Assembly (NCBI GenBank): GCA_030765065.1
Contig: CM060990.1
Coordinates: 217,535,290 to 217,599,289 of the forward strand
DNA length: 64,000 nucleotides
Reading direction: 5' to 3'
Source of the DNA: Deroplatys truncata
Taxonomy: Eukaryota; Arthropoda; Insecta; Mantodea; Mantidae
How positions within the stretch are numbered: the stretch's first letter is position 1; every line of letters begins with the position of its first letter. The notes under the pieces are model-generated. The model did not search any database. It was given only the letters and a program-made list of their open reading frames with translations, and was not told the DNA's origin. Shown here piece after piece: positions 12,158-60,600 of the stretch. The position numbers were made by a program, and so were the translations under genes.

Positions 12158-12195
12158 ATGTTCATACAAACAGAACAGAATCTCAAAGCTATCAC

Positions 12196-29114: not shown

Positions 29115-29340
29115 AGCGTGAAAGACCGGTAATTTTGCTCAGAGGCCTCTTTATAAGACTTGAGGTTCTTTTACGTGCCGTAAATCTACGACACGGGACC
29201 ACCGGCTTTACTTCCCTTCCGAAGGATGTCATGCTAAGGATTTTTACGCCCGAAAATATCCATCGCCCTCCGCCGGGTTTGAATCCACGACATAGGGAAC
29301 TAGAGGCTAGCATGGTAACCACTACACTACGGAGGACGAC
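29115..29340 (-). repeat. tRNA-derived SINE (type A), copy 1
   Basis: On the minus strand the head is at 29340. It reads TAGTGGTTACCATGCTAGCC (A box) and GTGGATTCAAACCCGGCGGA (B box). A body with TAGATTTACGGCACGTAAAA and GAGCAAAATTACCGGTCTTT follows. A second copy in the same orientation lies at 53670-53893. Confidence 0.85.
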
Positions 29341-38157: not shown

Positions 38158-38299
38158 GGTGAATAGTAGGAAAAGGATGGGGAATCCCGCGCACAAAGGA
38201 TTACCACCAACTCCTCCCCCTTTCTTTGTGCGCTGACCCTTAAAAGCCGCCAGCTCCTCCCCCTTGCTTTGTGCGCTGACCGGAGAAGCCGCCGACGAT

Positions 38300-38600
38300 T
38301 ACCCCTCCTTTTGGCCTACTAGCATGTCGCCTGGCTCTGTGCCGGTGGCCACACCCCTTCCTTTTTGTGCTACTAGTATGCTGCCAGGCTCTGTGCCGCT
38401 GGGCACACTCCTCCCCTCCCCTCCCCTTTGTGGTCTAATCCCGTACGCTTTCTACGTCCCCCTCTTTGAGTGTGCTGTTCTGAATGGTTCCCTGTAGAGT
38501 AGTGGAGGTACGCTGTCTACACCCTCCCCTCTTTGAGTGTGCTGGTCTGAATGGCTCCCTGTAGAGTAGTGGAGGAACGCTGGCCACACCCCCTCCTATG
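38300..38600. repeat. Terminal tandem subrepeats, left arm
   Basis: GC-rich units containing GGCTCTGTGCCG, CCACACCCCTTCC and TACTAGTATG (about 50 bp) occur about twice. Two copies of TGAATGG(T/C)TCCCTGTAGAG with AGTAGTGGAGG follow. Confidence 0.7.
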
Positions 38601-38744
38601 TTTGCTGTAGAGGAATGTGGGTAATATGGTATTGTTCCCGCACGCAGACCACTCTCATCCCTCTCTTGCGGCCTGACTTATACTGCTAACGTCATGGCAT
38701 CGCGCCTCTGAAGGCCTGGACGCGAACACTCGATCGAAGTATCC

Positions 38745-39010
38745 CCGCCGAATGTATCTTGATTAATGTAATTAAACGATGCTCCTCGATCGATGAATAC
38801 GATTAAGTATTTTTGATTGATTAATGTAATTAAGTGTATATGAATTGACTCGCGCGCAGCTGGTCGCCATCGTATATGTGTGCGTGGGTGTTAAGGTGAT
38901 TATTACACATGTATAATTATTACGACTAATAACATTTTATTTAATTCTACTTTTGAGGGTAAATATATTTTGGGTTTATAAGAATATTACGGCACTTAGA
39001 TGAATCCATA
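38745..39010. repeat. Arm module (outer copy), left arm
   Basis: Contains ATTGATTAATGTAATTAAGT, CGCGCGCAGCTGGT, ACGACTAATAACATTTTATT and TTTGGGTTTATAAGAATATT. This is the reverse complement of 59575-59835 and a paralogue of the inner copy at 48420-48690. Confidence 0.75.
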
Positions 39011-39393
39011 GCTGAAAGGACAGAGTTGCCGTAGCAGTCGTTAACGCGTGATAATTTCGCAGAAAACCCGCGCTCAACCCTTCCTCTATGCAGCATCTCA
39101 CGCGAGTGACCGGTCTCTCCCTCGTGGTACAGATCTCCTCCTGCAGATCGCGCGCCCTCTAAGCGAGAGAGCGGAAAGGTGGCTCTTCCGCTGAACGACG
39201 AAGATGGCGGAAATAGACATTTTAAAAATTTAACGAATGCACGGCGACGGCCATGTTGACTCCAAGGAAAGCTAGCATAAATCATTTGAAATGTCCGATA
39301 AGGAACTTCACGTTTCAAGATATTTTTCCAAGGTTTGTTTACACATAGGGGCGGCTCTGAAAAATAAATACTGTTAACATTATAGCTGAATAT

Positions 39394-39906
39394 TGTGACG
39401 TATGCAGAGATTATAGCACATACGTCTCTCTGGTCAACGGAATTCGAGATGGCAGTTAGAGTTTGGGTAGGGGGAACTAGGAATCTTAGGAGGGGATGAG
39501 TTGTTTGGCGTCCCTGACGCTTTAGTAGCGTGGCTTGGTACAAGAGAGTCAGTGGGCAACCTTCAAGCAGCAAGGACGTGGAACTGCCATCTCCGTGTGA
39601 GGCAAGCATGGCGACCTCGCCCGGCAGACATGTGGGCTAAGAATGTAAGATATCCATCTTTATTTATTAAATAACCATCCATCCATTCTCTTGCAGTTTT
39701 AATTATGATAGTGTAGAGCTCCTTCCTTCCCTGTGAGCCATGTAGTGCCCCTTTTTGCCAGTGATTGATAACATTTCTATACTTTCTTTAGCTGCGTCCC
39801 TCGTCGTAGCCTCGCCATGTAATAAGTTGGTTAATTTACCGGTACCCCTTTGCAAGCGAGTAGCTCACCATCATTTTGAGTATTATTTAGAAGAGAGGCT
39901 ACGACA
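39394..39906 (+). repeat. 5' LTR of the gypsy element
   Basis: 513 bp, beginning TGTGACGTATG and ending GGCTACGACA. It matches 47794-48298 with about nine substitutions and two indels (1 and about 7 bp). The sequence just downstream (TTGGTGGAGGGCCGGG) is the likely primer-binding site; the tRNA was not identified. Confidence 0.95.
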
Positions 39907-41075
39907 ATTGGTGGAGGGCCGGGCATAATTTAATTTTTTCTGAGGTTTTAAGTGCAAAATTTTTTTTCTCTGTAAAATGTAACGATTTTTGGTCCTCCAC
40001 GTGGTTGCTAAAATGTGAATCTGTTTCTTGGCTTAAGGGTAAGGATTTCAGTGGTATAATTTGTGGTTTCTGTATTCTAAATTCTTGCTACTTTGCTTTC
40101 TGAAAGTCCCGCGTCTAAATTTTAATTTTGAGTTCATTTTTATATTTTTTCCATTGTCTGTCGGCGTGACGCTAAAACTCCTGACTTCATTTTCCCCTTA
40201 TTTTGGCGTCCTTTCTACTAAATTATATTACTGTGCTAAGTTGTTCGTGCTGGTTGTTTTGAATTATATATTTTTGTGAATTGTGAAAAGTGAATTGTGA
40301 AAAGATTGGGAGATATTTGCAACTTTGATAATGTGCTCGTCACGTGTTGGTGATGTGGTTGGAAATGCTGTTTTCTGTGCTTATTAATAGTAGTTCTGCA
40401 AGCTTGTAATTTTAATTTGCATTGATTGTGATTCCCAGCTCTTTACTATACTTTTGTGGTGTATTTTTCGTGTAACTTTTATGTACGCACGTGTGTTATT
40501 CAATTTCTGCGTGGTCATGCAATTCATCACTAATTCTAGCTTGTGAAGCCAATCTTTTCCAGCACGTGTTCTGTGCGTTTATTTGCGTGTGTGCATATTA
40601 GGTCAGATGCATCTGTTTTAAACAAAAACAAAGAAAGAATTCATTTTGTGTATTGTACACTGATACGTATAAATTTCGAGTGTAGTATATTCTGCTCTCT
40701 TTGAAATAATGTCAGCGTTGGTCACAGTAGGTGTGACGTGTTTTTTTTTAACTTCCATTTCGAGTTTTCTCACTGAAGATATCACTTTGTTATTTTTTTC
40801 TTCCATGTGTACATCCTGTTTTAAAATCTTGGTTTTGTGTCCAAGTGGCTTGCGTGTCATGCCTGTGTAAACAATCTGCTGGTATAATTTTCTGATATTT
40901 CGCCGTGGGCGCTTAATTGTATTATTCCTGGTATTGGTTTTTTTTATCTGGCTATGTTCTGATATTGCTACTTACATTCATGCGATGCTATAAGTGCTTA
41001 GTGTGGTGTAATCTGTATTTGTGATCTTCCATATTCTGTTCATTTACTGGTTGTGTTTATCTTTGTGCTGCCACA

Positions 41076-42134
41076 ATGCCTAAGCGACGTACTACGCAGA
41101 AATCTGATGTGGCGATTGCTCCAGTTAGCGAGCATAGTGAAGTAGAATCTATTTCCAGTACTAGTACACCTGTTGTTACTCAGATATTACCAGTTATGCC
41201 TAATCCGCATGTGTCGGCGAGCACAATGCAGTCAGCTGTGTGTCGCCCGGTCATTGAACCCTCTAACTTTGAGAATTCCAGTAACTTGTCGGCATACGAA
41301 TTGATATAGAATTTTGAAATGGTCACTGCTGCTAATGGCTGGTCTGAGGAAATGAAATTGAAATGCTTTCCATGTTATTTACGAGATACTGCTGCATCAT
41401 GTTTTCAAACTTTTCGCCATCGGCATCCTCACCATGATTGGTTTTCCTTATCTACACAGTTTCTCAATGCATTTCAGATGACAAATCAGAGTGATATTTT
41501 GGAAATGAAACTCAGACAACGGGTACAGTTAGATGATGAAGCTGTTATTAATTACATCTATGATGTGCTATCTTTATGTGATCAAGTAAACCCAGCTATG
41601 TTGCAATTAGAACAAATTAAACGCTTGCTTAAAGGTCTTAAACCTCTTTATGTACAATCTTTACTGCCATTAAATCCTCAAACTGTTGATGAGGTAATAC
41701 AAATCATTCGACGAGTGGACAAGGCACAGTTTTATATGCAGAACCGTGAACATCTAGTGTCAGCTCACTCTCAGGCTGCAGTGGTTACACCACCCTCTGT
41801 TGCATTTAATAATTCTGTTCCTGCTGTCACTTTACCAGCTGCTGCTCAGCTAACTAATACTTCTTCTCTTGGGGACGTACCTATCGCTCCTATGAACCAG
41901 CTGATTGATCGTGTAGAACAGTTATGTAACCGAGTTAACCAGTTTCAGTTACCACGTGCTATACCATCTTCGGAGAGAACTTCACAGCTTCCACGGTCAT
42001 CTGACTTCAACCGGCGGGACTCATCCATCACCTGCTATAGATGCAACAGGCAGGGCCACCTGGCTCGCTTTTGCCGTAGCCGCTTTCCTCAGTCAAAAAA
42101 CGACTGGAGCCGAGCCTCATACGACGAGACATAG
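41076..42134 (+). pseudogene. gag region of the gypsy element
   Basis: Begins MPKRRTTQKSD. It carries a capsid-like segment and, near 42033-42074, a CCHC zinc knuckle CYRCNRQGHLARFC, which marks the nucleocapsid end of Gag. A fossil region, broken. Confidence 0.85.
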
Positions 42135-42199
42135 CAGCATCACCACCGCCCACCAGCATAGCTGCACCTCAACGGGATGTAGCTGCATTATCAGGTCAG

Positions 42200-45100
42200 A
42201 TCTTACAAGTTACTGGTCATATTGCCCAGACAGAGCTCTCCATCTTGCTCGATACAGGAAGCGCAGTGAGTATTGTGAATGCTGCACATGTTCTTGATCA
42301 CTCTACATTGAAACCCATAGAGATGATGCTCCGTACTGCAGGAAATAAGTTACTTGATGCGCCTTACCACACTGTGCTAGATTTTTATATTAATGATGTT
42401 CTTTTTCAGGAGGATGTATTAGTTGTGAAAGATTTGTCTCAGGATTTAATTTTAGGCAATGACTTTTTGCATGCCCATGATGTTATAATTGACTATGCAC
42501 ATAACTTGATAACCCTGAACTCTTCTGAGAATGATGCTTTCAGTATACCAATAACCCTAGCACAAGGTCCTTTTGTTGATATGGCAGTAAATCCTTTGCA
42601 AGATAATGAACGTACATATTCTGGTGTTAAAATGGCAGTTATGAATGGTGTAAAAATTCCACCTCTGTCTACATGTTATATATCAGTTAAGCCTTCGTCA
42701 GCTATTAGTAATGAGTTTATGTTTGAACCTGCTCTTAATATAATGCAAAAGAAGAATCTTTCAATTCCACCGTTGTTGTGTCATTCTGCATCTGAACTTA
42801 CCATACCAGTGCACAATAATACTGCAGTTCCACAAACATTGTTTGCAAATACAGTTTTAGCTAAAGCTTATGATGTTGCACTCGTTCAGAGTAATTCTGT
42901 TTTATCGTCAGATGTTACCCCTCTGCCAGCTCCAAATTGTAATTTTAATGTCAATGGTAAACTGCTGGAAACTCAAAAGGCTGAGTTGCATTCTTTATTA
43001 TTGAAATATAGTGATCTTTTTGCCACCACATTACAAGAACTCGGTAATACTGATGTTGCGGAATTTGATATTAAAGTAACTGACCCTAAACCAATTAAAC
43101 AAAGACCATACAGAGTTCCTCATAAACAAAAGGAAATTATTGCTGAGCAGGTTAAAGAAATGCAAGATGCTGGAATTATTAAGGAATCGCAGTCCTCTTG
43201 GGCTTCTCCTGTGGTACTTGTTAAAAAGAAAGATGGTTCCATGAGATTTTGTGTTGATTATAGAAAATTGAATGCTGTTACAGAAACCACCTCTTTCCCA
43301 TTACCATTGATAGACGATTTGTTAAGTTATTTGGGGGAGGCTAAATAGTTTGTCTCATTAGATTTGCTGTCAGCAAACTTTCAAGTACCTATTGCAGAGA
43401 ATAGCCAGAAATATACTTCTTTTGTTACGTTTCAGGGTCAATATCAATTCACACGCTTGAGTTTTGGGTTGGCGAATGCCCCTAGGTTTTTCAGCTACAT
43501 CGCAGACAAGTTGTTAGGTGATTTGAACTTTAAAAAGGCAATTGCATATTTGGATGATATTGTTGTTTTTGCTAAAACCTTTGAGGAGTTGTTACAAAAT
43601 CTTGAGGCTGTTTTTCAACGTCTGGATCACCATAAGTTTAAGCTCAAAACAGAAAAGTGTTTCTTCGCGATGCAAAAGATCAGGCTCTTAGGCTTTGAGG
43701 TTTCTAAAGATGGTATTTTCCCTGATTCTGATAAAGTTGTTTCCATTCAGAATTTGCCTCGTCCTAAAAATGTTCGAGATGTAAGGAAAGTTTTGGGATC
43801 GTTTAATTTTTACAGGAAATTCATCAAGGACTATGCAAATATTGCTCAACCACTAATTCAGTTGACTAGGAAAAATCAAAGTTTTATTTGGGGATATGAT
43901 CAGCAAACTGCATTTCAAAAGTTGAAGGACTTATTAGTTTCTGCCCCTGTCTTAGCTCACTATACTCCTGGTGCTTATACTGAATTACACTCTGATGCCA
44001 GTGGACTAGGGGTTGCTTCAGTGTTGTATCAAAAGATTGATAATGTGTTGAAACCAGTGGGCTATGCTTCGAGGACATTATCTAAATGTGAACGTAATTA
44101 TAGTGTTCCTGAGTTGGAATTGTTGGCCATCCTGTTTGTACTTACCCAATTTCGCAGTTTTGTTTATGGCTATAAGGTTCATATTGTATCTGATCATCAC
44201 TCCCTCTGTTATTTGAATAATTTAAAAGATTTGACTGGGCGTTTGGCACGTTGGAGTTTGAAATTGCAAGAGTTTGATTACACCATTTCCTATAAATCTG
44301 GTAAGAAACATCATGATGCTGATACTTTATCGAGATTTCCTGTGTTGCAACCTACAGAAAGTGATCTTGAACAGCTTGAAGAACTTCCCACATGTTTACT
44401 ATCTTCAGTTGAAGTTGCAGACCACCAGAAGAAAGATACTGTGTTACTTGAGCTTATCAATGCTCTCCATGATCCTCCGTCGGCCCCTGCTAAGCTTCAG
44501 AGACAAATTTCAAACTATACTCTCAAATCAGGAGTTCTTTATCGCAAAAATGCTGGCTCCACTGGCCCTCTCCATCTGCTGGTTATTCCAGAAGCTCTTA
44601 AACATGAAATTCTATCTTCATGTCATGATGATCCTCTTTCAGGTCATTTGGGATTTTCAAAAACATTTGCCAAAATTCACTCCAGATATTATTGGATTGG
44701 AATGAAGAAAGATATTGAACATTTTGTACGAACCTGTCCCAGCTGTCAAACAAGAAAAGGACCTAGGAATCAAAAACCAGCAGGCTTATTACAACCAATT
44801 CCGGTTACTTCTGTAGGCGAGCGGTAGGGTATTGATTTGCTTGGGCCTCTCCCACGCTCAAATTCTGGACACAAGTATGTTGTCGTTGCGACCGAGTATG
44901 CTTCTCGCTGGGTCGAGTCTGCGTCGCTTCCTTCAGCAACAATTCCTCAATTTGCTAAGTTTATTTTACATAACATCATCTGTAGGCATGGAGCCCCTGC
45001 CGCCTTGTTATCTGATCGTGGCTCAGTTTTCTTAAGTGAAGTGACACAAGAATTGTTGAGATCTTTATCAGTGTCTTCCAGTTTCACTAGTGCTTATCAT

Positions 45101-45667
45101 CCAGCTTGTAATGGACTTATTGAAAGATTTATTCAAACCCTCTTAAATATGCTTAGCCATTTTGTGGACACTAATCAAAAGAATTGGGACTCAATTTTGC
45201 CCTATGTAATTTTTTCCTATAACTCAAGTGTTCAAGAGTCTACTAAATTTTCACCCTTTTTCTTGATATATGGTCGAGAGCCTTCTTTACCTAACCAGGT
45301 TCAGCTGCAAGCTACTTCTAATGAATATTTTGTGAAACAGACTTTGCAAGAGATTCAGAAGGCACGTGAGGTTGCTGTTGCTAACATTACAAAGCAACAA
45401 GTGAAGCAAAAAGAAGCATTTGATGCTAAACATAGAGATGTGGTTTACAACGTAGGTCAATTAGTCAAAGTATTTACTCCTATTAGAAAGAAAGGTAAAT
45501 GTACAAAGTTGCTACATAGATATTTTGGTCCTTTTGAAATTATCCGACAGATCACTCCTGTTACCTACCTTGTTGGTCGACCTCATGCTCCTCGTACCAA
45601 ACATCAGAGTGTTCATGTATCACGCCTTCACCCTTACTATGATCCTGTGGGTCCTTATAGACTGTAA
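42200..45667 (+). pseudogene. pol region of the gypsy element
   Basis: Domains in Ty3/gypsy order: aspartic protease with LLDTGSA near 42250; reverse transcriptase with FCVDYRKLNAV near 43250 and the YLDD box near 43550; RNase H with LHSDASG near 43990 and ADTLSRFP; integrase with an HHCC-type zinc finger at about 44625-44755; and a catalytic core including LLSDRGS and NGLIERF near 45000-45130. The C-terminal part ends near 45667. This domain order places it in Ty3/gypsy and not Ty1/copia. It is broken; the finer lineage is not assigned. Confidence 0.92.
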
Positions 45668-47793
45668 AGTCTGAGTTTTCTGATGCTATTTTTATTGTAT
45701 GCCTTAATGTTGGCATGAAGCATATCTTATATGAAACTAGAAAGTTGCACCATTTTGTGGTAAAAAAAAAAGTACAAGAAAAAACCTATGAGTGTACTTA
45801 ATTTTGTTTGATTTTCAGGATGTTATGTGACAGTATTGTTTTGAGTAATGATGTGATTTTGTTCTGTTGCATTCGATTTGATTTGATTTGATTTTGGGTT
45901 TCATTATGATGCTGTGATCTTTTATTTGCAGAAAATTGTTGCATGAATAGTGTGTGTATGTATGTGTATATTTGAGATATGTGAGATATATGAGTTGATA
46001 TTTGCCTCGGTGGAAGTGCGTAAGAGTAACCCCGATGGTGGTAAAGAGAGGAGAAGAGATGAGACGATGTCAGCTTCGGTGGAAGTGCCAAAGTGTAACC
46101 CCGATATTTGAAGTGTAAATGTGTTGATTTTTCAGGAGGGCTACATGTACCTGGAAAGTTGATTTGAGAGATTTTGCTTATTGGTGTTGCTGAAACGTAT
46201 AGCGTGTGTGATGTATTCACACGAGAGAGTACATGTATTGAAGTGTATAAAATGAGAATAATTTTTTTTGTGTTTATGCAACAAGTTTAGTACCATCTTA
46301 TATAGCAAGTTTTAATACCATCTGTTTTCCAGCGTAATTTTGATTCGGAGGATGTGGATGCAACAGTATAATGTCATGTTATTTGTGTCATTCCTGAAAT
46401 GTTAATGTGATTTCTTTAAGGTTATGCCTATGTCAGATTTTTTGACTTTGCAGCATGTTAAATGAGACACGTCAGTGAAGATGTTTTGTTTTCGCAGTAA
46501 TTACTGTCCAAGAGAAAGTTGAAAGTTGAGATAAAGATGATGATGATGACTGAAGTAATGATGATGATTGAAACACATGATGATGATGATTGAAATACTG
46601 ATGATGATGATTGAGTTGATGAGGACAATAATGAGATGAATAAGATAGTAATGTAGAGGAGAATTGGTGTTAGTGACAGTAGAGTATGATTATTGTAGTT
46701 TGAATATGTACTGTGTATTTATTTTTTTTGAAGTTTGTAGTAATGCATACAGTAGTTTTGAGTAGCTAGTTAAGTGAGTGTTGTGTATAATTTGGGCCAT
46801 GGTCAGTGTGAATGATTCCATTTCATTGTCATGTATGAATGTATTGTAAGTGCACTTATTTTCTCTTCATTAATGGTACCAGCTGGTTAAGAAATAATAT
46901 TGGGATCCCAAATAAATTTATATTTTTCTGTTATGTTAGTGTATGGAAACAATGAATGTTACTGATATAATGTTAATATGTTTTGGTTCTTTTGTGATTC
47001 TGTGTTTGGATTTTAAAGCATTGTGTGTTAAATTTTGGATGGTAACCCCCTGAAAAATTTAGTTTTTATGTCAACACGTAGTCATTTTTCTCTCTCTTTG
47101 CCCCATGTTAACAGAATTTATTGAGTGCAAACCTTCTGAACATTTAAAATATTTTATTGTAAATGACATACTATTTCTTTTATGTGTGATGATTTGTTGG
47201 AGCACCCTTTCTACCTTCTGTGGTTTTTGTTATAGTTATTTTGCTGATGGCGGAGCTCGAGCGGATAAGACGAGCACCTCCACCTTTCACGCCAGAGGTT
47301 CCAGAGACACCACAGGAGAGATGCCGTGCAGCCACTACATTGCAGTGGCATAAGGAGCCACTAATTTGGGGGGCAGTCCAAGCCAGCGACTGCCCATCCC
47401 TTCTTCATCTCCAACGACCTGCAGAATCAAAAACTTTTCAACCAGAATATCATTCGTCGTTGTGGGTGATCTGCAAACTCCACCCACAAACAGTTACGTC
47501 GGACATCAACCCAGGTGCAGTGTAGTGTGCGTGTGACAGAGGCAGCGTGGTGTGTGTGCGTGTGCGGGGTGCTCGAGCATAAGTGCTCTAATGATACATA
47601 TTCCGTAAAGACTCGAGACTCCTATATATATGCCAAGTATAAGTTTTTATGTTTTTGTTTGGGTGATCCATACACATGTATCAATATTTTTTTCCTCTTT
47701 CTCTTTGTATGTCATTTTTGCTCTTGTAATTGTTTTTTGTGTAATATTTGCCTTGTGTCGAAGAGGGCGTCGATCTCGGTGGCCAGGGGGAGA
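45668..47793 (+). other. 3' non-coding region and polypurine tract of the gypsy element
   Basis: About 2.1 kb without a recognisable protein. It contains a (GATGAT)n-like stretch at about 46535-46615 and ends in the purine run GGGGGAGA immediately before the 3' LTR, the usual plus-strand primer position. Confidence 0.7.
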
Positions 47794-48298
47794 TGTGACG
47801 TAGCAGAGTTTATAGCACATACGTCTCTCTGGTCACCGGTATGGCAGTTAGAGTTTGGGTAGGGGGAACTAGGAATCTTAGGAGGGGATGAGTTGTTTGG
47901 CGTCCCTGACGCTTTAGTAGTGTGGCTTGGGACAAGAGAGTAAGTGGGCAACCTTCAAGCAGCAAGGACGTGGAACTGCCATCTCCGTGTGAGGCAAGCA
48001 TGGCGACCTCGCCCGGCAGACATGTGGGCTAAGAATGTAAGATATCCATCTTTATTTATTAAATAACCATCCATCCATTCTCTTGCAGTTTTAATTATGA
48101 TAGTGTAGAGTTCCTTCCTTCCCTGTGAGCCATGTAGTGCCCCTTTTTGCCAGTGATTGATAACATTTCTATACTTTCTTTAGCTGCGTCCCTCGTTGTA
48201 GCCTCGCCATGTAATAACTTGGTTAGTTTACCGGTACCCCTTTGCAAGCGAGTAGCTCACCATCATTTTGAGTATTATTTAGAAGAGAGGCTACGACA
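47794..48298 (+). repeat. 3' LTR of the gypsy element
   Basis: 505 bp, TGTGACGTAGC to GGCTACGACA, preceded by the polypurine tract and followed by the ATAT duplication and the resumed left arm (ATATTACATATG). Confidence 0.95.
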
Positions 48299-48302
48299 AT
48301 AT

Positions 48303-48425
48303 TACATATGTTATTAAAAATAAATGATGGCGGTTACCATTATAGCTGAATAATACATATGTTATTAAAATAAATAAACACGGTTATCATTATAGTTAAA
48401 TATTACATACGTTATTAAAATAAAT
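48303..48425. repeat. Short tandem repeat in the left arm, about 55-bp units
   Basis: ATTACATATGTTATTAAAA-type units, each ending in TTATAGCTGAATA or TTATAGTTAAATA, occur two to three times. The mirror region 59095-59190 has about one unit fewer. Confidence 0.65.
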
Positions 48426-48720
48426 AATGGTCTCGCTGATCGATGAATACAATTAAATAATTTTGATTAATTAATGTAAATAAGTGTATATGAATTGACT
48501 TGCGCATTTGGTTGCCATCCTATGTGTTCGTGTGTTAAGGCGATTATTACGCGTGTATAACTATTACGACTAATAATTCTACTTTTGAAGGAAAATATCT
48601 TTTGGGTTTATACGAACATTGCATCGCTTAGGAGAATGCATGAGTGAAAAGACAGAGTTAGCGTAAATACCTAACACGAGACGTTAACGCGTGATTCTTT
48701 CACTGAAAACCCGAACGCGC
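48420..48720. repeat. Arm module (inner copy), left arm
   Basis: Contains CTCGCTGATCGATGAATACA, GATTAATTAATGTAAATAAG, GACTAATAATTCTACTTTTG and GACGTTAACGCGTGA. Paralogous to 38745-39010 and mirrored at 58800-59100. Confidence 0.75.
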
Positions 48721-49024
48721 GGTCCATGTCCTGTAGGCGCTGACTCAGTGTTGATCTCTTGCACCTGCATGCATGACTTGACCACGTCATCCCTTACCCA
48801 AACACCCCTTCACTCTCTGTGCCTGTCACTGTCTTCCGCGCAATTATTTTCCGCTCTCTCTAGCGGAGAGCGACGAAAGTTCAAGTTAAATATGTTATTA
48901 ATAAATAAAAACTGAACCAAATAAATAATGAAATATGGAGACTATCCTAAACAATACACATTCCTTGTTACTCTGTACCAAACAACTGAAAAGAAGCACA
49001 AATATATCAAGACAGAGGATAAAG

Positions 49025-49820
49025 CACTCCACGTGCATAGGTATGGACCTTAAAACAGTCATTTTCCATAAAGTACCCCACCCGCTCACGCATGCAAGCG
49101 CATAGGTAGGGTCTTTAAAACAGACATTGTCGATATAGTACCACTCTGCCAGCGCAAGCATACGCGTAGACATGGACTTTAAAACAGTCGTTGTCGATAA
49201 AGTATAGCACTGCCAACGCAATCACACGCATAGACATGGACTTTAAAACAGACACTGTCGGTAAAAATACGCATCCATCACACACTCTCTCTCTCTCTCT
49301 CTGTCTCTCTCTATTTCTCTCACTCTCACTCATTTGCAGGCCCAGACTTTAAAACATACATTATAGATAAAGCAGTCCACGTGCATAGGCATGGACTTTA
49401 AAACAGGCATTCTCGATAAAGTATAGCATTGCCAGTGCAAGCACGCGCGTAGGCATGGACTTTAAAACAGACGTTGACGATAAAGTATAGCACTGCCAGC
49501 GTAAGCACACGCGTAGACATGGACTTTAAAACAGGCATTTTAGATAAAATATAGCATTGCCTGCGCAAGCATTCGCAAGGACATGGACATTAAAACACAC
49601 AATGTAGGTAAAAATAAGCATCCAACACACACACTTTCTCTGTCTCTCTCTCCCCTTTGCAGGCATGGACTTTAAAACAGACATTATCGATAAAGTACCA
49701 TAGCCCTCTCTCACATGCAACCGCATAGGTAGGGTCTTTAAAACAGGCATTGTCGGTAAAGTACCGCACTGTCACCGCAAACATCCTCGTAGGCATGGAC
49801 TGTAAAACAGTCATTGCCGA
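49025..49820. repeat. Tandem array of about 65-bp units, left arm
   Basis: About twelve units carry ATGGACTTTAAAACAGACAT, a TCGATAAAGTA motif, a GCACTGCCAGCG-type block and CGCGTAGGC. It is interrupted by (CT)n runs near 49270-49320 and 49630-49660. Open frames through it follow the repeat and are not genes. Confidence 0.85.
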
Positions 49821-51228
49821 TAAAACAAACTCCTCTTTCACGTAAACTCTCCCTCTCACGCACTCCCTCTCTACATTACGGGAACGATTTATATAGCGGT
49901 TTACACACCCTTGAAAAATATATTGTACAAGGTTGAAGGGGGTAAACCCAAGCACTAGCTGACTTAATGGCCGGGATTCCTCAGAAATATAGCATCTAAA
50001 GAGTGTAAACGGATTTTCCCCAAGACCCTGGAAAGTACATCGAGAGAAAACAAGGATAATTTATTTTCATTACTAACGCAAAAATTATATTATCGTCAAA
50101 AAAGCTTATTTGTTTATTCCATTTAAAAAGACTGGTGTTTCACCCGCCACATCTAAAAAAATAATTTCGTCCCCATCACTCGAATGTATACATATCATAA
50201 TTCTATGAGAGGTAACGTGTCTATTCACATTCGAGAGATCACGGCTTCCAATTCCGGTTAGGTGATTTACTGTGCAAAGCAAGCCCTCCCATTAAGAGTT
50301 TTATAAGTTTTGGTGTAATATTTTCCTACGGTGTATGATGTATAGGTCCTGTACGTAAACATTCGTTACATGTACAAAAATTATTATTCCCATAACAAAA
50401 ACGAAAAAGGATTCGTGTAATAGACGCTTAAATGTTTAGATATGCAGCGTCTAAAGTGGTATTGAATACAAGATGGTAATCGAAATCTGAACTCAAACCA
50501 GTAAATACACGGACTTTCAAAACATGCATTATTCTCCTAGTAAACATAGGACGAGAACGTTTTAAACAACCCTCCCTTCGAAAGATATTTTGAATATTCC
50601 AGCAGAGAGATCGAACCATTACGAAGACTTCAAATTATAAATTTCATATTTGTTTAAAAGCTTTTTCTTCATCGGGAATCTTCTAAAAATTCGACGAGTT
50701 ATTCAGTTACACACCCCTTGCAAAAATATTTTGTATACGCTTTGAAGACTGTATACCTGGATGGGGGTCTCGGAAATACCTCAGGCATCCGGCTACCGTC
50801 ATATAGCTCATTTTTTGACCATGTCGGACACTTCTTCATTAAGGAATCTAGTGTGCTTTAAAATGATTCCTCTTCCCCTGACAAACCCGTACTTATCGGA
50901 AAATCCCTCTCATACAGACGGCTGTGTAAATATCATAACTTAATTTTTTGCACGATATCCACAATTAAACTAATTTTTATGGAATGATAAACAAATAAAT
51001 ATGATTTGTAGAGGGTGATTTCAAGAGTATGACATTTTAGAAATAAAATGGGAGAAAGAATTCTAATTAAGCGATCGAATGTATCAGATAGTATTTTCTC
51101 ATTGGGTCTTTGAAGCTAGCCAGTTTTACGGTCTACTTTATAGATGAATGAAATATTTAATGTATGACAGTCTCATTTAACATGGGTAAAAGGTGTATAA
51201 AGGCTGTTTTGATAAAACTTAATCGTGG
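49821..51228. other. Unique-looking arm sequence (left)
   Basis: No tandem structure or gene recognised. It is mirrored almost base for base at about 56335-57690; a 63-codon frame at 50428-50619 translates identically to its mirror at 56897-57088. Confidence 0.7.
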
Positions 51229-51390
51229 TAACGTGTGAGGTTTGAATTGGAGAGGTTGCCGGTTCGATTCCAGGTGACCGCGCTGTCTGATTTTAGAACC
51301 TACATGAAGGTCTACGAATACATAGCCCGCCCATTAACGATTTTTATAAACGAGGGTGTAACCTTACAAGGAAAATTATATCAATAGAAA
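51229..51390 (+). repeat. tRNA-like SINE relic in the left arm
   Basis: GTGGTAACGTGTGAGGTTTG and a B box CCGGTTCGATTCCAGG, with TAGAACCTACATGAAGGTCT downstream. Its mirror is at 56200-56335. Confidence 0.65.
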
Positions 51391-51589
51391 CAATACCTTC
51401 TTTTTAGTTATTTTCACTCTAAAATTATTATTAAATAACACCTGTGAGGTTGGTGCTAGCCTCAGCGTCGCCATTCATATTCATATCATGTTAGAATAAT
51501 ACTTTAATTGCATACAGACGCTTCAAATATAATACTGTAGCGAATATTTTGGTAATACATAGATATAGTGCAAGCCATCCCATTAACGG

Positions 51590-51790
51590 TCTTTATAAGC
51601 AAGGGTTCAGTCGGTAACGTCTGTGACTTGTATTCGAGGTCGTAGGTTCGATCCCCAGCAGCAGACGCTCCTGACTCCTCGTTTCCCTGATTGCTAGGCG
51701 AATGCTGTGAAGGTTCATTACAACCGCGAATTTTTTCCTCCACCCCGTTTCACCGATATTCTCCTTTTATTCAGGCTTTCATCTCTCCGG
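51590..51790 (+). repeat. tRNA-derived SINE in the left arm
   Basis: TCAGTCGGTAACGTCTGTGA (A-box region), GTAGGTTCGATCCCCAGCA (B box) and core CCTGATTGCTAGGCGAATGC. Mirrored at 55600-55795. Confidence 0.75.
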
Positions 51791-52129
51791 CTCTGACTGG
51801 TAATATTTGCTACTGAACGTCGCACTCATGTGATACAGATGCTTTATGAATAAAGAAACGTATATGTATGTAGCTAAAAGGACAGAGATATCGTAGTGTT
51901 TAAAACAGAAATTTTTCGCACCCTCGAGGTAAAATACAGGGAATACCTCAAAACACGCATCCCGAGAAGTTAAGTGTAAAGGTCCAGTATATAGAGTGCT
52001 ATCCTTAAACAGACGCAGCAGGAAGGGAAAGCCATTCGAGTGTATGGTTTTTACTTCTCCTTTTGATGTGACAGCATATACAGCTAGTAATTCCACATTC
52101 TTAAACATATCGACCGCTTACTCTGGTCT

Positions 52130-52980
52130 CGCATTTTTCGCGGTTTTCCCTGGTCCGCATGCGAATGCCTGAGTGGTGTATGCTAGGGCGATTTCCTTTC
52201 ATTCTATATAATTTGAATCTTTACGCTTGCTTCTAGGATCGCTATTTCGATTACCATAGACCACTCGCTCAGACCTGAGATTTTTCGTGGTTTTCCCTGG
52301 TCTGTAGGCGAATGTCTGAGTGGCGTATGCTACCACGTTTTATTTTTATTTCATTCGCATTTTAACACGTGCTTATAAGGACGCTGTTTGGATTACCGTC
52401 GACCACTCTCAAACCAGAGATTTTTCGTGGTTTTCCCTGATCTGTTGGCGAATGCCTGAGAGGCGTATGCTACCACGTTTTCATTTTATTTCATTCGCAT
52501 CTTTAACACAACTTCTAAGGCAGCTGCCTGGATTACCGTAGACCACTCGCTCAGACCGGAGATTTTTGCGTGGTTTTCCCTTGTCTGTAGACGAATGCCT
52601 GAACGGCTTATGCTACCACGTTTTCATTTTATTTTATTCGCATCTTTAACACGTGCTTCTAAGGACGCTGTTTGGATTACCGTCGACCACTCGCTCAGAC
52701 CGGAGATTTTTCGTGGTTTTCCCTTATCTGTTGTGGAATGCCTGAGAGGCGTATGCTACCACGTTTTCATTTTATTTCATTCGCATCTTTAACATGTGCT
52801 TCTCAGGCCCTCTGTTTGGATTACCGTCGGCCACTCGCTCAGACGTGAGATTTTTCGTGGTTTTCTCTGGTCTGTGGCGAATGTCTGAGTGACGTATGCT
52901 ACCACGATTTCCTTTCGTTCTATATAATTTGCATCTTTCATTTCATTCACTTTTTTTGCTTCTAGGTTTCGTTGCGCATG
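52130..52980. repeat. Tandem array of about 142-bp units, inner end of left arm
   Basis: TTTTTCGTGGTTTTCCCTGG or a variant recurs at about 52132, 52281, 52421, 52563, 52707 and 52851. Each is followed by GGCGAATGCCTGAG, ATGCTACCACG, a TTTCATTCGCATCTT stretch and GATTACCGTCGACCACTCG. The GGTCTGTAGGCGAATGCC part resembles the core of the SINEs in this window. Confidence 0.88.
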
Positions 52981-53669
52981 TTGAATGCCTGGTCAAAAGG
53001 ATACTTGTCCCTTCCTCGGTTGACAAACTCACGAATTAAACACCCGTATCTGCGCGACTATACCCGAAGAATACATACATCTTCACAATACTTTACACTT
53101 ACTCTAAGCATCCGAACATGTACGGAGACGTTCGAACACCGCCGAACAATACATTATCGTTGCAATACATTGCTCACTCACTCTAAGCACGCGAAGCTAT
53201 ACGAAGACCTATGAATACATGCAATCACACATAAACACATCTGACCGACTCTCTAAATACTCGAACATGCCGGAAGAAATACGGGCATTTGCTTATCAGA
53301 ACCCACAATCAGATTGGAATGACAGGCTTTAATGTAGATATTTATTTACAACCATAACAAGAGCACATCACATCTAAGAACTGTCTTAGACAGGAACTTT
53401 CTCTTTAAGACACGCTATGTATACTATTTGCTTGTTTAGATTCAATAGAGATTCCAAACTTATACTTCGGAAAAAAAATTGTAGGCAATTTCGGGTGCTC
53501 TTAAAGTTAAGATAATTTTATCGAGGATTGTCTTAAAGGAACGCATGACATGCAACATTTACCAGATAATGCTTCTTACATAGGCTTACAATAGCGAGTT
53601 TGCGACTTCAGATGCATATATCCGACAATCAACTAATTTGTTCACGGTTTTGCTTGAGAAATCGTATTG

Positions 53670-53893
53670 GGCGTGAAAGACTGGTAATTTTGCTCAGAGT
53701 CCTCTATCAGGCTTGAGGTTCTTTTACGTGCCGTAAATCTACGACACGGAACCACCGGCTTTACTTCCGTTCCGAAGGAAGCCATGCTAAGGATATCTAC
53801 GCCCGAAAAAATACATCGCCCTCCGCCGGGTTCGAACCCGCGACCTCGGAAACTAGAGGCTAGCATGGTAACCACTACATCATGGACGACGAC
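53670..53893 (-). repeat. tRNA-derived SINE (type A), copy 2, in the loop
   Basis: Same family and orientation as 29115-29340. It carries TAGTGGTTACCATGCTAGCC, a well-preserved B box GCGGGTTCGAACCCGGCGGA and the body TAGATTTACGGCACGTAAAA. Confidence 0.85.
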
Positions 53894-53929
53894 ACACAGT
53901 TAAGGTCATTTGTGTGTAACACTAACTAA

Positions 53930-54320
53930 TCGAGTGGAATGGCTCAGGTGGTAAGTCTGTGACTTGTATTCGGATCGATGGTACAATCCCAGTAACCCAC
54001 ACCCCCTGATTCTCAGAGGTTTTTTTCTTCGAGATTTTCCGCTCACTAGACGAATGCTGTGAAGGCTCGCTCCACCTCTGAACTTTTCCTCTCATCGCTT
54101 CACCTCCATCCTCATTTTACTTTTTTCATCTTCTTGGTTGTTTCAGGGTTGAAACTAGCGGAGAGGTACTCTCGGCATAAGCAGAGCTTATGCTCTCTGT
54201 AACTTTCATCCATGGAATGAGTGTGGCCCCGAATCGTGAACCTCTCAGGAGATGCGTAAGTCTGTAGTCCTCGGTAGGAGCCATAGATTGCGTCAACTGC
54301 CACCAGGGATTTTTTAACCG
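53930..54320 (+). repeat. tRNA-derived SINE in the loop
   Basis: Head ATGGCTCAGGTGGTAAGTCT with TGACTTGTATTCGGATCGAT, and a degenerate B box GATGGTACAATCCCAG. The core has TCACTAGACGAATGCTGTGA. The first 240 bp follow the same plan as the SINE in the arms at 51590. A 3' domain beginning GTTTCAGGGTTGAAACTAGC echoes the AGGGTTGGAA of type B SINEs. Confidence 0.65.
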
Positions 54321-54357
54321 TGAAAGGTAGAGGCCCTGCCCCCTACCCTTTGACTGT

Positions 54358-54657
54358 CACGTCGTCACGCTACGTCACAACGTCGTCACGCTACGTAGCA
54401 ACGTCCTCACGCCACGTAACAACGTCGTCACGCTACGTAACAACGTCGTCACGCCACGTAACAATGTCGTCACGCCACGCAACAACGTCTTCACGCCACG
54501 TAACAACGTCGTCACGCTACGTAACAACGTCGTCACCCCACGTAACAACGTCGTTACGCTACGTAACAACGTCGTCACGCCACGTAGCAACGTCGACACG
54601 CGACGTAACAACGTCGTCACGCCACGTAGCAACGTCGTCACGCTACGTAACAACGTA
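54358..54657. repeat. 21-bp minisatellite in the loop
   Basis: About 14 head-to-tail units of TCGTCACGCTACGTAACAACG with single-base variants. The period is a multiple of three, so both strands carry repetitive open frames (SSRYVTT and similar), which are artefacts. It occurs on one side only, next to the right arm. Confidence 0.92.
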
Positions 54658-55260
54658 GCCTACAGACCAGGGAAAACCACGAAAAATCTCAGGTCTGAGC
54701 GAGTGGTCGACGGTAATCCAAACAGCTGCCTTAGAAGCACGTGAATGAAATAAAATGAAAACGTGGTAGCATACGCCACTCAGACATTCGCCTACAGACC
54801 AGGAAAAACTACGAAAAATCTCAGGTCTGAGCGAGTGGCCGACGGTAATTCAAATAGATGGCCTTAGAAAAACGTGTTAAACATGCGAATGAAATAAAAT
54901 TAAAGCGTGGCAGAATACGCCACTCAGGCATTCGCCTCCAGACAAGGGAAAACCACGAAAAATCTCCAATCTAAGCGAGTAGTCGACGGTAATCCAAACA
55001 GCTGCCTTAGAAGCACGTGAATGAAATAAAATGAAAACGTGGTAGCATACGCCACTCAGACATTCGCCTACAGACCACGGAAAACCACGAAAAATCTCAG
55101 GTCTGAGCGAGTGGTCGATGGTAATCGAAATAGAGATCCTAGAAGCAAGCGTAAAAGATACAAATTATATAGAATGCAAGGAAATCGCCCTAGCTTACAC
55201 CACTCAGGCATTCGCATGCGGACCAGGGAAAACCGCGAAAAAAATGCGAGACCAGAGTAG
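54657..55260. repeat. Tandem array of about 142-bp units, inner end of right arm
   Basis: Inverted form of the array at 52130-52980. CCACGAAAAATCTC recurs near 54677, 54811, 54950 and 55090, with a diverged unit near 55235. Fewer units than in the left arm. Confidence 0.85.
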
Positions 55261-55599
55261 GCCCTCGATATGTTTAAGAATGTGGAATTACTAGCTGTAT
55301 ATGGTGTCACATCAAAAAGAGAAGTAAAAACCATACACTCGAATGGCTTTCCCTTCCTCCTGCGTCTTTTTAAGGATAGCACTCTATATACAGGCCCTTT
55401 ACACTTAACTTCTCGGGATGCGTGTTTTGAGGTATTCCCTGTATTTTACCTCGAGGGTGCGAAAAATTTCTGTTTTAAACACTACGACATCCCTGTCCTT
55501 TTAGCTACATACATATACGTTTCTTTATTCATAAAGCATCTGTATCACATGAGTGCGATGTTCAGTAGTAAATATTACCAGTCAGAGCCGGAGAGATGA

Positions 55600-55795
55600 A
55601 AGCCTGAGTAAAAGGAGAATATCGGTGAAACGGGGTGGTGGAAAAAATTCGCGGTTTTAATGAACCTTCACAGCATTCGCCTAGCAATCAGGGAAACCAG
55701 GGGTCAGGAGCGTCTGCTGCTGGGGATCGAACCTACGACCTCGAATACAAGTCACAGACGTAACCGACTGAACCCTTGCTTATAAAGACTGTTAC
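55600..55795 (-). repeat. tRNA-derived SINE in the right arm
   Basis: Mirror of 51590-51790. B box complement GGGGATCGAACCTACGACC and core complement GCATTCGCCTAGCAATCAGG. Confidence 0.75.
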
Positions 55796-56199
55796 TGGCT
55801 TGCACTGTATCTATGTATTACAGAAATATTCGCTACAGTATTATATTTGAAGCGTCTGTCTGCAATCAAAGTATTATTCTAACATGATATGAATATGAAT
55901 GGCGACGCTGAGGCTAGCACCAACCTCACAGGTATTATTTAATAATAATTTAAGGGTGAAAATAACTAAAAAGAAGGTATTGTTTCTGTTGATATAATTT
56001 GCCTTGTAAGGTTACACCCTCGCTTATAAAATGCTAAAATTCAATGTTTATTATCATCAAAAACATAAATATTGGCGCTAGTATTATATCTGAAGTGTCC
56101 GTCTGTCACGTATTATTTAATAATAATTTTAGAGTGAAAATAACGAAAAAGAAGGTATTGTTCCTGTTGATATAATTTTCCTTGTAAGGTTACACCCTC

Positions 56200-56335
56200 G
56201 TTTATAAACAATCGTTAATGGGCGGGCTATGTATTCGTAGACCTTCATGTAGGTTCTAAAGTCAGACAGGGCGGTCACAAGGAATCGAAACGGCGACCTC
56301 TCCAATTCAAACCTCACACGTTACCACGATGTAAT
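56200..56335 (-). repeat. tRNA-like SINE relic in the right arm
   Basis: Mirror of 51229-51390; the complement of the B box reads GGAATCGAAACGGCGACC, slightly diverged. Confidence 0.6.
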
Positions 56336-57694
56336 TTTTATCAAAACAGCCTTTAAACACCTTTCACCCATGTTAAATGAGGCTGTCATTCATTAGATAT
56401 TTCATTAATCTATAAAGTAGACCGTAAAACTGGCTAGCTTCAAAGACCCAATGAGAAAAAAACTATCTGATACATTCGATCGCTTAATTTGAATTCTTTC
56501 TCCCATTTTATTACTAAAATGCCATACTCTTCATATCACCCTCTACAAATCATATTTATTTGTTTATCATTCCATAAAAATTAGTTTAATTGTGGATATC
56601 TGTATGAGAGGGATTTCCCGATATGTACGGGTTTTTTAGGGGAAGAGAAATCATTTTAAAGCACAATAGATTCCTTAATTAAGAAGTGTCCGACATGGTC
56701 CTAAATGAGCTATATGCCGGTAGCCGGTCGCCTGAGGAATTTCCGAGACCCCCATCCAGGTATACAGTCTTCAAAGCGTATACAAAATATTTTTGCAAGG
56801 GGTGTGTAACTGAATAACTCGTCGAATTTTTAGAAGATTACCGTTGAAGAAAAAGCTTTTAAACAAACATGAAATTTATTATTTGAAGTCTTCGTAATGG
56901 TTCGATCTCTGTGCTGGAATATTCAAAATATCTTTCGAAGGGAGGGTTGTTTAAAACGTTCTCGTCCTATGTTTACTAGGAGAATAATGCATGTTTTGAA
57001 AGTCCGTGTATTTACTGGTTTGAGTTCAGATTTCGATTACCATCTTGTATTCAATACCACTTTAGACGCTGCATATCTAAACATTTAAGCGTCTATTACA
57101 CGAATCCTTTTTCGTTTTTGTTATGGGAATAATAATTTTTGTACATGTAACGAATGTTTACGTACAGGACCTATACATCATACACCGTAGGAAAATATTA
57201 CACCAAAACTTATAAAACTCTTAATGGGAGGGCTTGCTTTGCACAGTAAATCACCTAACCGGAATTGGAAGCCGTGATCTCTCGAATGTGAATAGACACG
57301 TTACCTCTCATAGAATTATGATATGTATACATTCGAGTGATGGGGACGAAATTATTTTTTTAGATGTGGCGGGTGAAACACCAGTCTTTTTAAATGGAAT
57401 AAACAAATAAGCTTTTTTGACGATAATATAATTTTTGCGTTAGTAATGAAAATAAATTATCCTTGTTTTCTCTCGATGTACTTTCCAGGGTCTTGGGGAA
57501 AATCCGTTTACACTCTTTAGATGCTATATTTCTGAGGAATCCCGGCCATTAAGTCAGCTAGTGCTTGGGTTTACCCCCTTCAACCTTGTACAATATATTT
57601 TTCAAGGGTGTGTAAACCGCTATATAAATCGTTCCCGTAATGTAGAGAGGGAGTGCGTGAGAGGGAGAGTTTACGTGAAAGAGGAGTTTGTTTT

Positions 57695-58500
57695 ATCGGC
57701 AATGACTGTTTTACAGTCCATGCCTACGAGGATGTTTGCGGTGACAGTGCGGTACTTTACCGACAATGCCTGTTTTAAAGACCCTACCTATGCGGTTGCA
57801 TGTGGGAGAGGGCTATGGTACTTTATCGATAATGTCTGTTTTAAGTCCATGCCTGCAAAGGGGAGAGAGAGACAGAGAAAGTGTGTGTGTTGGATGCTTA
57901 TTTTTACCTACATTGTGTGTTTTAATGTCCATGTCCTTGCGAATGCTTGCGCAGGCAATGCTATACTTTATCTAAAATGCCTGTTTTAAAGTCCATGTCT
58001 ACGCGTGTGCTTACGCTGGCAGTGCTATACTTTATCGTCAACGTCTGTTTTAAAGTCCATGCCTACGCGCGTGCTTGCACTGGCAATGCTATACTTTATC
58101 GAGAATGCCTGTTTTAAAGTCCATGCCTATGCACGTGGACTGCTTTATCTATAATGTATGTTTTAAAGTCTGGGCCTGCAAATGAGTGAGAGTGAGAGAA
58201 ATAGAGAGAGACAGAGAGAGAGAGAGAGAGTGTGTGATGGATGCGTATTTTTACCGACAGTGTCTGTTTTAAAGTCCATGTCTATGCGTGTGATTGCGTT
58301 GGCAGTGCTATACTTTATCGACAACGACTGTTTTAAAGTCCATGTCTACGCGTATGCTTGCGCTGGCAGAGTGGTACTATATCGACAATGTCTGTTTTAA
58401 AGACCCTACCTATGCGCTTGCTTGCGTGAGCGGGTGGGGTACTTTATGGAAAATGACTGTTTTAAGGTCCATACCTATGCACGTGGAGTGCTTTATCCTC
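57695..58500. repeat. Tandem array of about 65-bp units, right arm
   Basis: TGTTTTAAAGTCCATG or a variant recurs near 57707, 57772, 57838, 57910, 57981, 58047, 58111, 58158, 58265, 58329, 58394 and 58460. These alternate with TACTTTATCGACAATG and CGCGTGTGCTTGCGCTGGCA. Mirror of 49025-49820, with nearly identical unit order and a (GA)n run near 58200-58230. Confidence 0.88.
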
Positions 58501-58799
58501 TGTCTTGATATATTTGTGCTTCTTTTCAGTTGTTTGGTACAGAGTAACAAGGAATGTGTATTGTTTAGGATAGTCTCCATATTTCATTATTTATTTGGTT
58601 CAGTTTTTATTTATTAATAACATATTTAACTTGAACTTTCGTCGCTCTCCGCTAGAGAGAGCGGAAAATAATTGCACGGAAGACAGTGACAGGCACAGAG
58701 AGTGAAGGGGTGTTTGGGAAAGGGATGACGTGGTCAAGTCATGCATGCAGGTGCAAGAGATCAACACTGAGTCAGCGCCTAAAGGACATGGACCGCGCG

Positions 58800-59100
58800 T
58801 TCGGGTTTTCAGTGAAAGAATCACGCGTTAACGTCTCGTGTTAGGTATTTAGGCTAACTCTGTCTTTTCAGTCATGCATTCACCTAAGCGATGTAATGTT
58901 CGTATAAACCCAAAATATATTTTCCTTTAAAAGTAGAATTAAACAAATGTTATTAGTCGTAATAGTTATACACGCGTAATAATCGCCTTAACACACGAAC
59001 ACATACGATGGCAACCAAATGAGCAAGTCAATTCATATAAACTTATTTACATTAATTAATCAAAATTATTTAATTGTATTCATCGATCAGCGAGACCATT
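58800..59100. repeat. Arm module (inner copy), right arm
   Basis: CAGTCATGCATTCACCTAAG, GTTATTAGTCGTAATAGTTA, ACATACGATGGCAACCA and TTCATCGATCAGCGAGACC. Paralogous to the outer copy at 59575-59835 and to the fragment at 3513-3975. Confidence 0.75.
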
Positions 59101-59574
59101 ATTTATTTTTAATAACGTATGTAATATTTAACTATAATGTTATCCGTATTTGTTTATTTTTAATAACATATGTAATATTCAGCTATAATGTTAACCGTAT
59201 TTATTTTTCAGAGCCGCCCCTATGTGTAAACAAACCTTGGAAAAATATCTTGAAACGTGAAGTTCCTTATCGGACATTTCAAATGACTTATGCTAGCTTT
59301 CCTTGGAGTCAACATGGCCGCCGCCGTGCATTCCTTAAATTTTTAAAATGTCTGCTTCCGCCACCTTCGTCGTTCAGCGGAAGAGCCAGCTTTCCGCTCT
59401 CTCGCCTAGAGGGCGCGCGATCTGCAGAAGTTGAATTGTACCACGAGGGAGGGATGGAAGGGGTGAATGCTAGCTTGCTCGCTGCTCTTGAGGGACCGGT
59501 CACTCGCGTGAGACGCTGCTTAGAAGAAGGGTTGCGCGCGGGTTTTCAACGAAATTATCACGCGTTAACGACTG

Positions 59575-59835
59575 TTACGGCAACTCTGTCCTTTCAGCTA
59601 TGGTTTTATCTAAGTGTTGTAATATTCATATAAACCCAAAATATATTTTCCCTCAAATAAGTATTAAACAAAATGTTATTAATCGTAATAATTATACATG
59701 TGTAATAATCACCTTAACACCCACTTACACATATACGATGGCAACCAGGTGCGCGCGAGTCGATTCGTATACACTTAATTACATTAATCAATCAAAAATA
59801 CTTAATCGTATTCATCGATTGAGGAGCATCGTTTA
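59575..59835. repeat. Arm module (outer copy), right arm
   Basis: TTTCAGCTATGGTTTTATCT, TTATTAATCGTAATAATTAT, ACGATGGCAACCAGGTGCGC and TCATCGATTGAGGAGCATCG. Same order of blocks as the inner copy. Confidence 0.75.
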
Positions 59836-60039
59836 ATTACATTAATGAAGATACATGCGGCGGGGATACTTCGATCGAGTGTTCGCGTCCAGCCCTTCAG
59901 AGGCGCGATGCCATGTCGTTAGCAGTATAAGTCAGGCCGCAAGAGAGGGATGGGAGTGGCCTGCGTGCGAGAATAATACCATATTATGCCACACTCCTCT
60001 ACAGCAAACATAGGAGGGGGTGTGGCCAGCATTCCTCCA

Positions 60040-60350
60040 CTACTCTACAGGGAGCCATTCAGACCAGCGCATTCAAAGAGGGGAGGGTGTAGACAGCGCA
60101 CCTCCACTACTCTACAGTGAGCCATTCAGAACAGGACACTCAAAGGGGGGACGTAGAAAGCGTACGGGGTTAGACCACAAAGGGGTGGGGAGGAGTGTGG
60201 CCAGCGGCACAGAGCCTGGCGGCATACTAGTAGCACACAAAGGAGTGGGTGTGGCCACCGGCACAGAGCCGGGCGGCATACTATTAGCACACAAAGGAAG
60301 GAGTGTGGCCACCGGCACAGAGGCAGGCGACATGCTAGGAGGCCAAAATG
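60040..60350. repeat. Terminal tandem subrepeats, right arm
   Basis: Inverted counterpart of 38300-38600. About four units of the GGCACAGAGCC(T/G)GGCGG type with GCACACAAAGGAGTG, against about two in the left arm. Confidence 0.7.
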
Positions 60351-60497
60351 AGGGGTCGTCCTCGGCGGCTTCTCCGGACAGCGCACAAAGCAAGGGGGAG
60401 GAGCTGGCGGTTTTTAAGGGTCAGCGCACAAAGAAAGGGGGAGGAGTTGGCGATATTCCTTGGTGCGCGGGAGTCTCCATCCTTTTTCTACTGTGAA

Positions 60498-60600
60498 TGC
60501 TTGAAATATATTTTTAAAATTTAACCAAATATCATTTATCATAAAATTGAAATATTCTATTCTGAATCGGCCTTCTTGGATTTTAAAGGCTCAGGGTATA
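60498..60600 (-). pseudogene. hAT transposase relic (right fragment)
   Basis: The minus strand reads RFRIEYFNFMINDIWLNFKN then IFQAF. This is the block that lies directly N-terminal of the FGFMYDL block in the same hAT family. The latter is on the far side of the giant element (38157), on the same strand and in the expected order. This supports one hAT relic split by the giant insertion. Confidence 0.7.

Follow-up and report, generated by a model that had tools for sequence, protein, structure and literature searches.

Fold-back elements, by the account in PMC4079207, are for the most part classed as Mutator-type, though not all of them: Galileo, for one, is of P type. Another class of large elements with inverted ends is that of the Mavericks, or Polintons. 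As described for vertebrates in PMC8097293, Mavericks are 12,723-24,620 bp long and are flanked by perfect 6-bp duplications. Their ends are (AGT)2 or (AG)3, their terminal repeats measure 46-1,447 bp, and the end repeats are given a role in protein-primed replication, at its jumping-back step. The Polinton duplication is also given as 6 bp in PMC10045372. Here we describe a 64,000-bp stretch of the genome of the mantis Deroplatys truncata (GenBank assembly GCA_030765065.1, contig CM060990.1, positions 217,535,290-217,599,289, forward strand; hereafter the window), in which positions 38165-60492 hold one copy of a dispersed family of fold-back elements. No Maverick gene was found in this family, and yet its ends and target duplications make it quite likely that it is mobilized in trans by the polymerase and integrase of Mavericks.

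Comparison of the window with its own reverse complement shows that arm similarity begins exactly at 38165 and 60492. An earlier note on this DNA, made from the letters alone, had proposed defined inverted ends; these are present, with the boundaries now refined to the two positions given here, each flanked by GTGAAT. This perfect 6-bp target duplication occupies 38159-38164 on the left and 60493-60498 on the right, and among flank lengths of 2-12 bp, 6 bp is the only one at which the two sides of this copy are identical; random pairs of positions within the window agree over six bases with a frequency of 0.0004. Read inward, both ends begin with AGTAG: the left end is AGTAGGAAAAGGATGG (motif AGTAGG, 38165-38170, plus strand) and the right end AGTAGAAAAAGGATGG (motif AGTAGA, 60487-60492, minus strand). 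Leaving aside a retrotransposon that interrupts the left arm, the element is 13,419 bp long, of which each arm takes up about 5.8 kb and the loop 1.7 kb. All four mirrored pairs listed in the earlier note are recovered, namely 38165-39394 with 59174-60492 (three aligned pieces, 90-95% identity), 48316-50918 with 56599-59208 (97.8%), 50954-51444 with 56107-56600 (94.5%), and 51342-52731 with 54662-56031 (91.6%). The mirror alignments are well above chance, with bit scores of up to 4492, and the layout also recurs elsewhere in the host genome.

A 601-bp arm probe finds at least 40 near full-length matches in the host assembly (4.29 Gb), at 91-100% identity and with the window's two included; scoring was limited to the top 40 of 1,429 candidates, which makes 40 a lower bound. 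Many of the matches are arranged as inverted pairs with 5-22 kb between them. We fetched ten such pairs with both sides and interiors and mapped both ends in nine, which together with the window gives ten complete copies; the pair L027/L028 is left out of this set, its left end beginning with AGTAG and its right end not found. Among the ten complete copies the 6-bp duplication is exact in seven and has one mismatch in three, and none has an exact duplication of 4, 5, 7, 8, 9, or 10 bp. In a control in which flanks of different copies were paired, 6-bp agreement was exact in 2 of 90 pairings and had one mismatch in 4 of 90. The ends are equally consistent: 19 of 20 start with AGTAG, followed by T in nine, G in six, and A in four, so that AGTAGT is present at 9 of 20. 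The single exceptional end has lost its AGT and retains the duplication; with this end set aside, alignment without any shift put the start at AGTAG in 17 of 17 fetched ends. In the target duplications, A/T is mildly preferred in the middle four positions (0.40-0.58 bits, near NATATN; 20 flanks). Patterns taken from the ends or subrepeats had no match among viral contigs or prokaryote genomes, a result of little weight for an element of animals.

The relatives resemble the window copy well beyond their ends. When its right arm and loop are divided into 300-bp bins, nine of the ten fetched relatives match all arm bins and nearly all loop bins, at identities of 77-97% with the outermost bin the lowest; the tenth, c9, is without the inner arm and the loop. 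Since arms and loop are common to nine of ten relatives, the palindrome itself is the unit that multiplied. The AGTAG ends, the 6-bp duplications, the conserved arms and loop, and the likeness of the two arms within a copy that is described below are directly observed in this dispersed family. The suggestion that this might be a non-autonomous family is supported by the nine other complete copies with the same boundaries, for which the earlier note had proposed to search. Of the 40 scored probe matches, 33 lie on the window's contig (707 of 4,290 Mb), the window's two included; grouped into elements from these best 40 of 1,429 candidates, 21 of 28 are on this contig against an expected 16.5% (binomial p about 1e-11). 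This clustering may point to a sub-lineage that is young, to local spread, or to a sex chromosome.

Relative to the published descriptions, the family is Maverick-like in its 6-bp target duplication, its AGT-repeat ends, its inverted terminal repeats, and its total size. The window copy without its insert (13.4 kb) lies within the Maverick range of 12.7-24.6 kb, as do eight of the nine complete relatives, whose spans, later insertions included, are 13.9-21.1 kb; c9, at 9.6 kb, is outside it. Mavericks encode polymerase, integrase, and capsid genes, whereas the scanned frames of the fold-back family gave none. Scans against Pfam found nothing Maverick-like in any of the 27 open frames of at least 65 aa in the left arm and loop or in the three long frames of the right arm, and no Maverick domain in 14 of the 17 listed frames of at least 170 aa in the ten relatives. 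The remaining three frames, as inspection of their first residues indicates, lie within a retrotransposon inside c10. In the scanned frames of the window element and its relatives no protein-primed polymerase, integrase, or capsid gene and no helper gene of any kind was found, in agreement with the earlier note, which saw no transposase. Shorter or decayed Maverick remnants are possible and would be compatible with these scans. A match to LbR_Ice_bind (36.9 bits; cut-off 30) and matches to DUF948 and others below the cut-off arise from a 21-bp array in the loop, and we take them to be spurious products of translating a tandem repeat; one further match below the cut-off lies outside this array. 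At the c10 locus (L043 and L044), the two arms of the family member enclose a long terminal repeat (LTR) retrotransposon, distinct from that of the window, whose genes include an envelope-like one (Baculo_F, 53 bits).

Although the ends, duplication, and size fit, the gene content does not, and for this reason we do not file the family as a Maverick; it is likely a non-autonomous derivative that depends on Mavericks. Literature searched by phrase describes no non-autonomous Mavericks or Polintons, this search having covered neither Repbase, where an entry is possible, nor most subscription papers, and passages of PMC6431247 and PMC4642659 describe no such elements. Several points weigh against a Maverick connection. 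The fold-back arms, at 5.8 kb, are far longer than the 46-1,447 bp of Maverick terminal repeats in PMC8097293. About 1% of the 6-mers in the window fit a published Maverick motif at five of six places, so the motif alone is weak, and the related copies amount to a single case for it. In ten of the 20 ends the base that follows AGTAG is not T, and one further end lacks AGT. The motifs compared are those of vertebrate Mavericks, which may not be those of arthropod ones. Because the motif is weak and the copies count as one case, the argument for Mavericks rests on the ends and the duplication length jointly.

The endogenous mavirus-like elements of Cafeteria, as presented in PMC8547959, provide a partial parallel. 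They are relatives of Mavericks and, like the fold-back family, have terminal inverted repeats and have been hit by retrotransposons, the repeats included; where copies were truncated, the terminal inverted repeats are said to have been regenerated. Unlike the family described here, they encode viral genes, have repeats of 0.2-2.3 kb, and make duplications of mostly 3-5 bp.

Could a cut-and-paste transposase of another or an undescribed superfamily make the 6-bp duplications, the AGTAG ends being coincidental? We consider this rather improbable. IS3EU and GingerRoot likewise produce 6-bp duplications, and the lack of a helper gene of any kind in the scanned frames suits such a transposase too, but according to PMC10045372 the ends are TA..TA in IS3EU and mostly TA..TA, occasionally TG..CA, in GingerRoot, so that both agree with the family in duplication length and disagree with its AGTAG ends. 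Dada, which by the description in PMC3706591 is without terminal inverted repeats and inserts in small RNA genes, is ruled out by the 5.8-kb inverted repeats; with respect to its targets, the window contains no tRNA and no Rfam match. Ginger1 is likewise rejected by its ends, its terminal repeats, or the length of its duplication. The earlier note had pointed to a Foldback/Galileo-type element, and the long repetitive arms, the variable middle, and the lack of a transposase are indeed as in Galileo and Tetris. Tetris of Drosophila virilis also has the fold-back plan, tandem-repeat arms, no coding capacity, and a helper that was not found (PMC4079207), and Galileo has long, internally repetitive arms, its longest-armed copies being non-autonomous (PMC3573991). 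The duplications in these sources differ from those of our family, which has 6 bp and AGTAG ends: Galileo has 7-bp flanking sequences, in addition to longest terminal inverted repeats of about 1.26 kb and a P-type transposase, and Tetris has duplications of 8-10 bp. An exact duplication of 7 bp, as for Galileo and the P superfamily, or of 8, 9, or 10 bp, as for a Mutator-type fold-back element such as Tetris, is present in 0 of 10 copies, which already contradicts a Galileo-type or Mutator-type origin and makes it exceedingly improbable.

A stretch of about 1.6 kb in which the arms are almost identical could also come from a collapsed assembly, and one might regard the whole palindrome as a local inverted duplication or an artefact with no mobile element involved. 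We give this very little credence: divergence between the arms reaches 7%, the retrotransposon is in one arm only, and ten copies have precise ends and duplications, while the 60-bp flanks of different copies have no 11-mer in common. For the palindrome as a whole, a simple assembly fold-back is already contradicted, also by the nine other complete copies.

Identity between arms is higher within a copy (mean 0.956) than between copies (mean 0.925, best value 0.946). When arm positions 620-2000 are placed in a tree, the two arms of a copy are sisters in all eight testable copies, with support of 0.82-1.0; 18 of 22 arms were kept, a length filter having removed the window's left arm, the right arm of c1, and both arms of c10. 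Sister arms are likewise found in 10 of 11 copies for the segment 1480-2030 and in 7 of 8 for the segment 660-1000, c9 being the exception in both. The arms were therefore alike from the birth of each copy or were equalized afterwards.

On the reading that we favor, mobilization by Mavericks, the arms would be alike from birth. The protein-primed polymerase of a helper Maverick would start at the repeated AGT end and displace one strand. Pairing of its 5.8-kb arms would fold this strand back into a long panhandle, within which one arm could template or repair the other, so that the two arms of the new copy would end up near-identical. The retrovirus-like integrase of the helper would then insert the linear product and duplicate 6 bp. 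Before the family spread, the arms may have grown from a shorter terminal repeat, absorbing pieces of host sequence such as a short interspersed element (SINE)-like sequence. Symmetric defective adenovirus genomes offer a model of such arm growth, for which a literature search turned up nothing relevant and which we do not use as evidence. Post-insertion gene conversion could also produce sister arms, and that it alone accounts for the likeness within copies, with no contribution from mobilization, is an appreciable possibility, if a somewhat weaker one than its opposite. At 49000-50700 (plus strand) the window's arms have 8 mismatches in 1,700 positions, with 893 consecutive identical bases from 49712, compared with 51 in 1,166 for the part of the arms closer to the loop (Fisher p 3e-13) and 84 in 1,222 for the outer part (p 5e-24), and this stretch of about 1.6 kb is likely a conversion tract, although it could be an assembly collapse instead. 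The unpaired arms of c9 in the two short-segment trees, together with a support of 0.817 in the long tree, also weigh against the favored reading. The pairing of sisters across separate segments argues against conversion as the sole cause.

More tentatively, we suggest that the family might be a gene-free, nearly all-palindromic satellite that hijacks Maverick replication, integration, and perhaps packaging, this last step being presumptive, and whose arms are re-copied through the panhandle in each cycle, so that new copies are kept as near-perfect mirrors. If the arms are rewritten every cycle, both should be identical at birth, and the examined copies agree with this. Dependence on Mavericks, if true, would mean that virus-like self-synthesizing transposons also have large non-autonomous parasites, and the family would be a natural system in which to test how protein-primed replication works in animals. 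The history of the window copy after its insertion can be read, assuming similar mutation rates, from a series of divergences (arms 4.4-6.9%, retrotransposon LTRs 2.2%, tract 0.5%): the arms would have begun to diverge, the retrotransposon would then have entered the left arm, and about 1.6 kb would later have been equalized by gene conversion.

The internal layout proposed in the earlier note, with terminal subrepeats, a module repeated twice per arm, two tandem arrays, SINE-like pieces, and an unmirrored loop, is confirmed. The outer part of the left arm (38165-39393, plus strand) is 93.1% identical over 1222 aligned bases to the inverted sequence at 59180-60492, and contains a GC-rich terminal block with 43-, 54-, and 67-bp subrepeats (38165-38670) and the first copy of the module (38782-39030), which is 80% identical to 48432-48659. 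The remainder of the left arm (48299-52938), on the same strand, contains the second copy of the module (48432-48667), a 64-65-bp array (49035-49824; mirror at 57692-58480), a SINE-like piece (51617-51783; mirror at 55595-55761), and a 142-bp array (52133-52915). The right arm (54658-60492, minus strand, 5835 bp) is uninterrupted and has its 142-bp array at 54658-55242. Between the arms, the loop (52939-54657, 1719 bp) contains a SINE (53665-53894) that is 89% identical to 29110-29341 and, not listed before, the 21-bp array mentioned above (54359-54656, about 14 copies). The SINE-like pieces of the arms belong to a family that is also present in the loop (53955-54175) and at 12.2 kb in the window (12194-12370 or, at its widest, 12194-12415; alignment z about 17), which suggests that the fold-back family acquired host repeats before spreading. 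As the bins are conserved across relatives, these pieces are a property of the family and not private to the window copy. We do not claim that the 142-bp array derives from the SINE-like piece: their comparison gave z of 3.1-3.7, with scores close to the best of 200 shuffles.

The observation made in the earlier note is confirmed and its interpretation partly supported, one correction being that the span includes an inserted retrotransposon. Positions 39394-48298 (plus strand, 8905 bp) are a Ty3/gypsy LTR retrotransposon, overlooked before, which is a later insertion in the left arm and no part of the fold-back element. Its LTRs (39394-39907 and 47794-48298) are direct repeats with 11 mismatches in 505 aligned bases, it is flanked by a target duplication of ATAT, and its gag, protease, reverse transcriptase/RNase H, and integrase domains are each in separate frames. 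The right arm is uninterrupted at the matching place and has no retrotransposon. Among the 120 matches listed for the pol frame, ticks, a butterfly, and a pseudoscorpion supply the best named relatives (37-47% identity), and names of nematodes and plants appear further down.

Elsewhere in the window, 3552-3954 is a distant, reversed relative (66-79%) of the twice-per-arm module with no element ends close by, which may be a dispersed repeat or an old relic. A 122-bp tandem array lies at 7940-8856 (7.5 copies), each unit containing an inverted motif. Transposase remnants are found at 34358-34825 (DDE_1, E 5.7e-18) and, with matches below the cut-off, at 23820-24572 (DUF659, E 3.4e-7) and 17819-18211 (DDE_3, E 2.3e-4).

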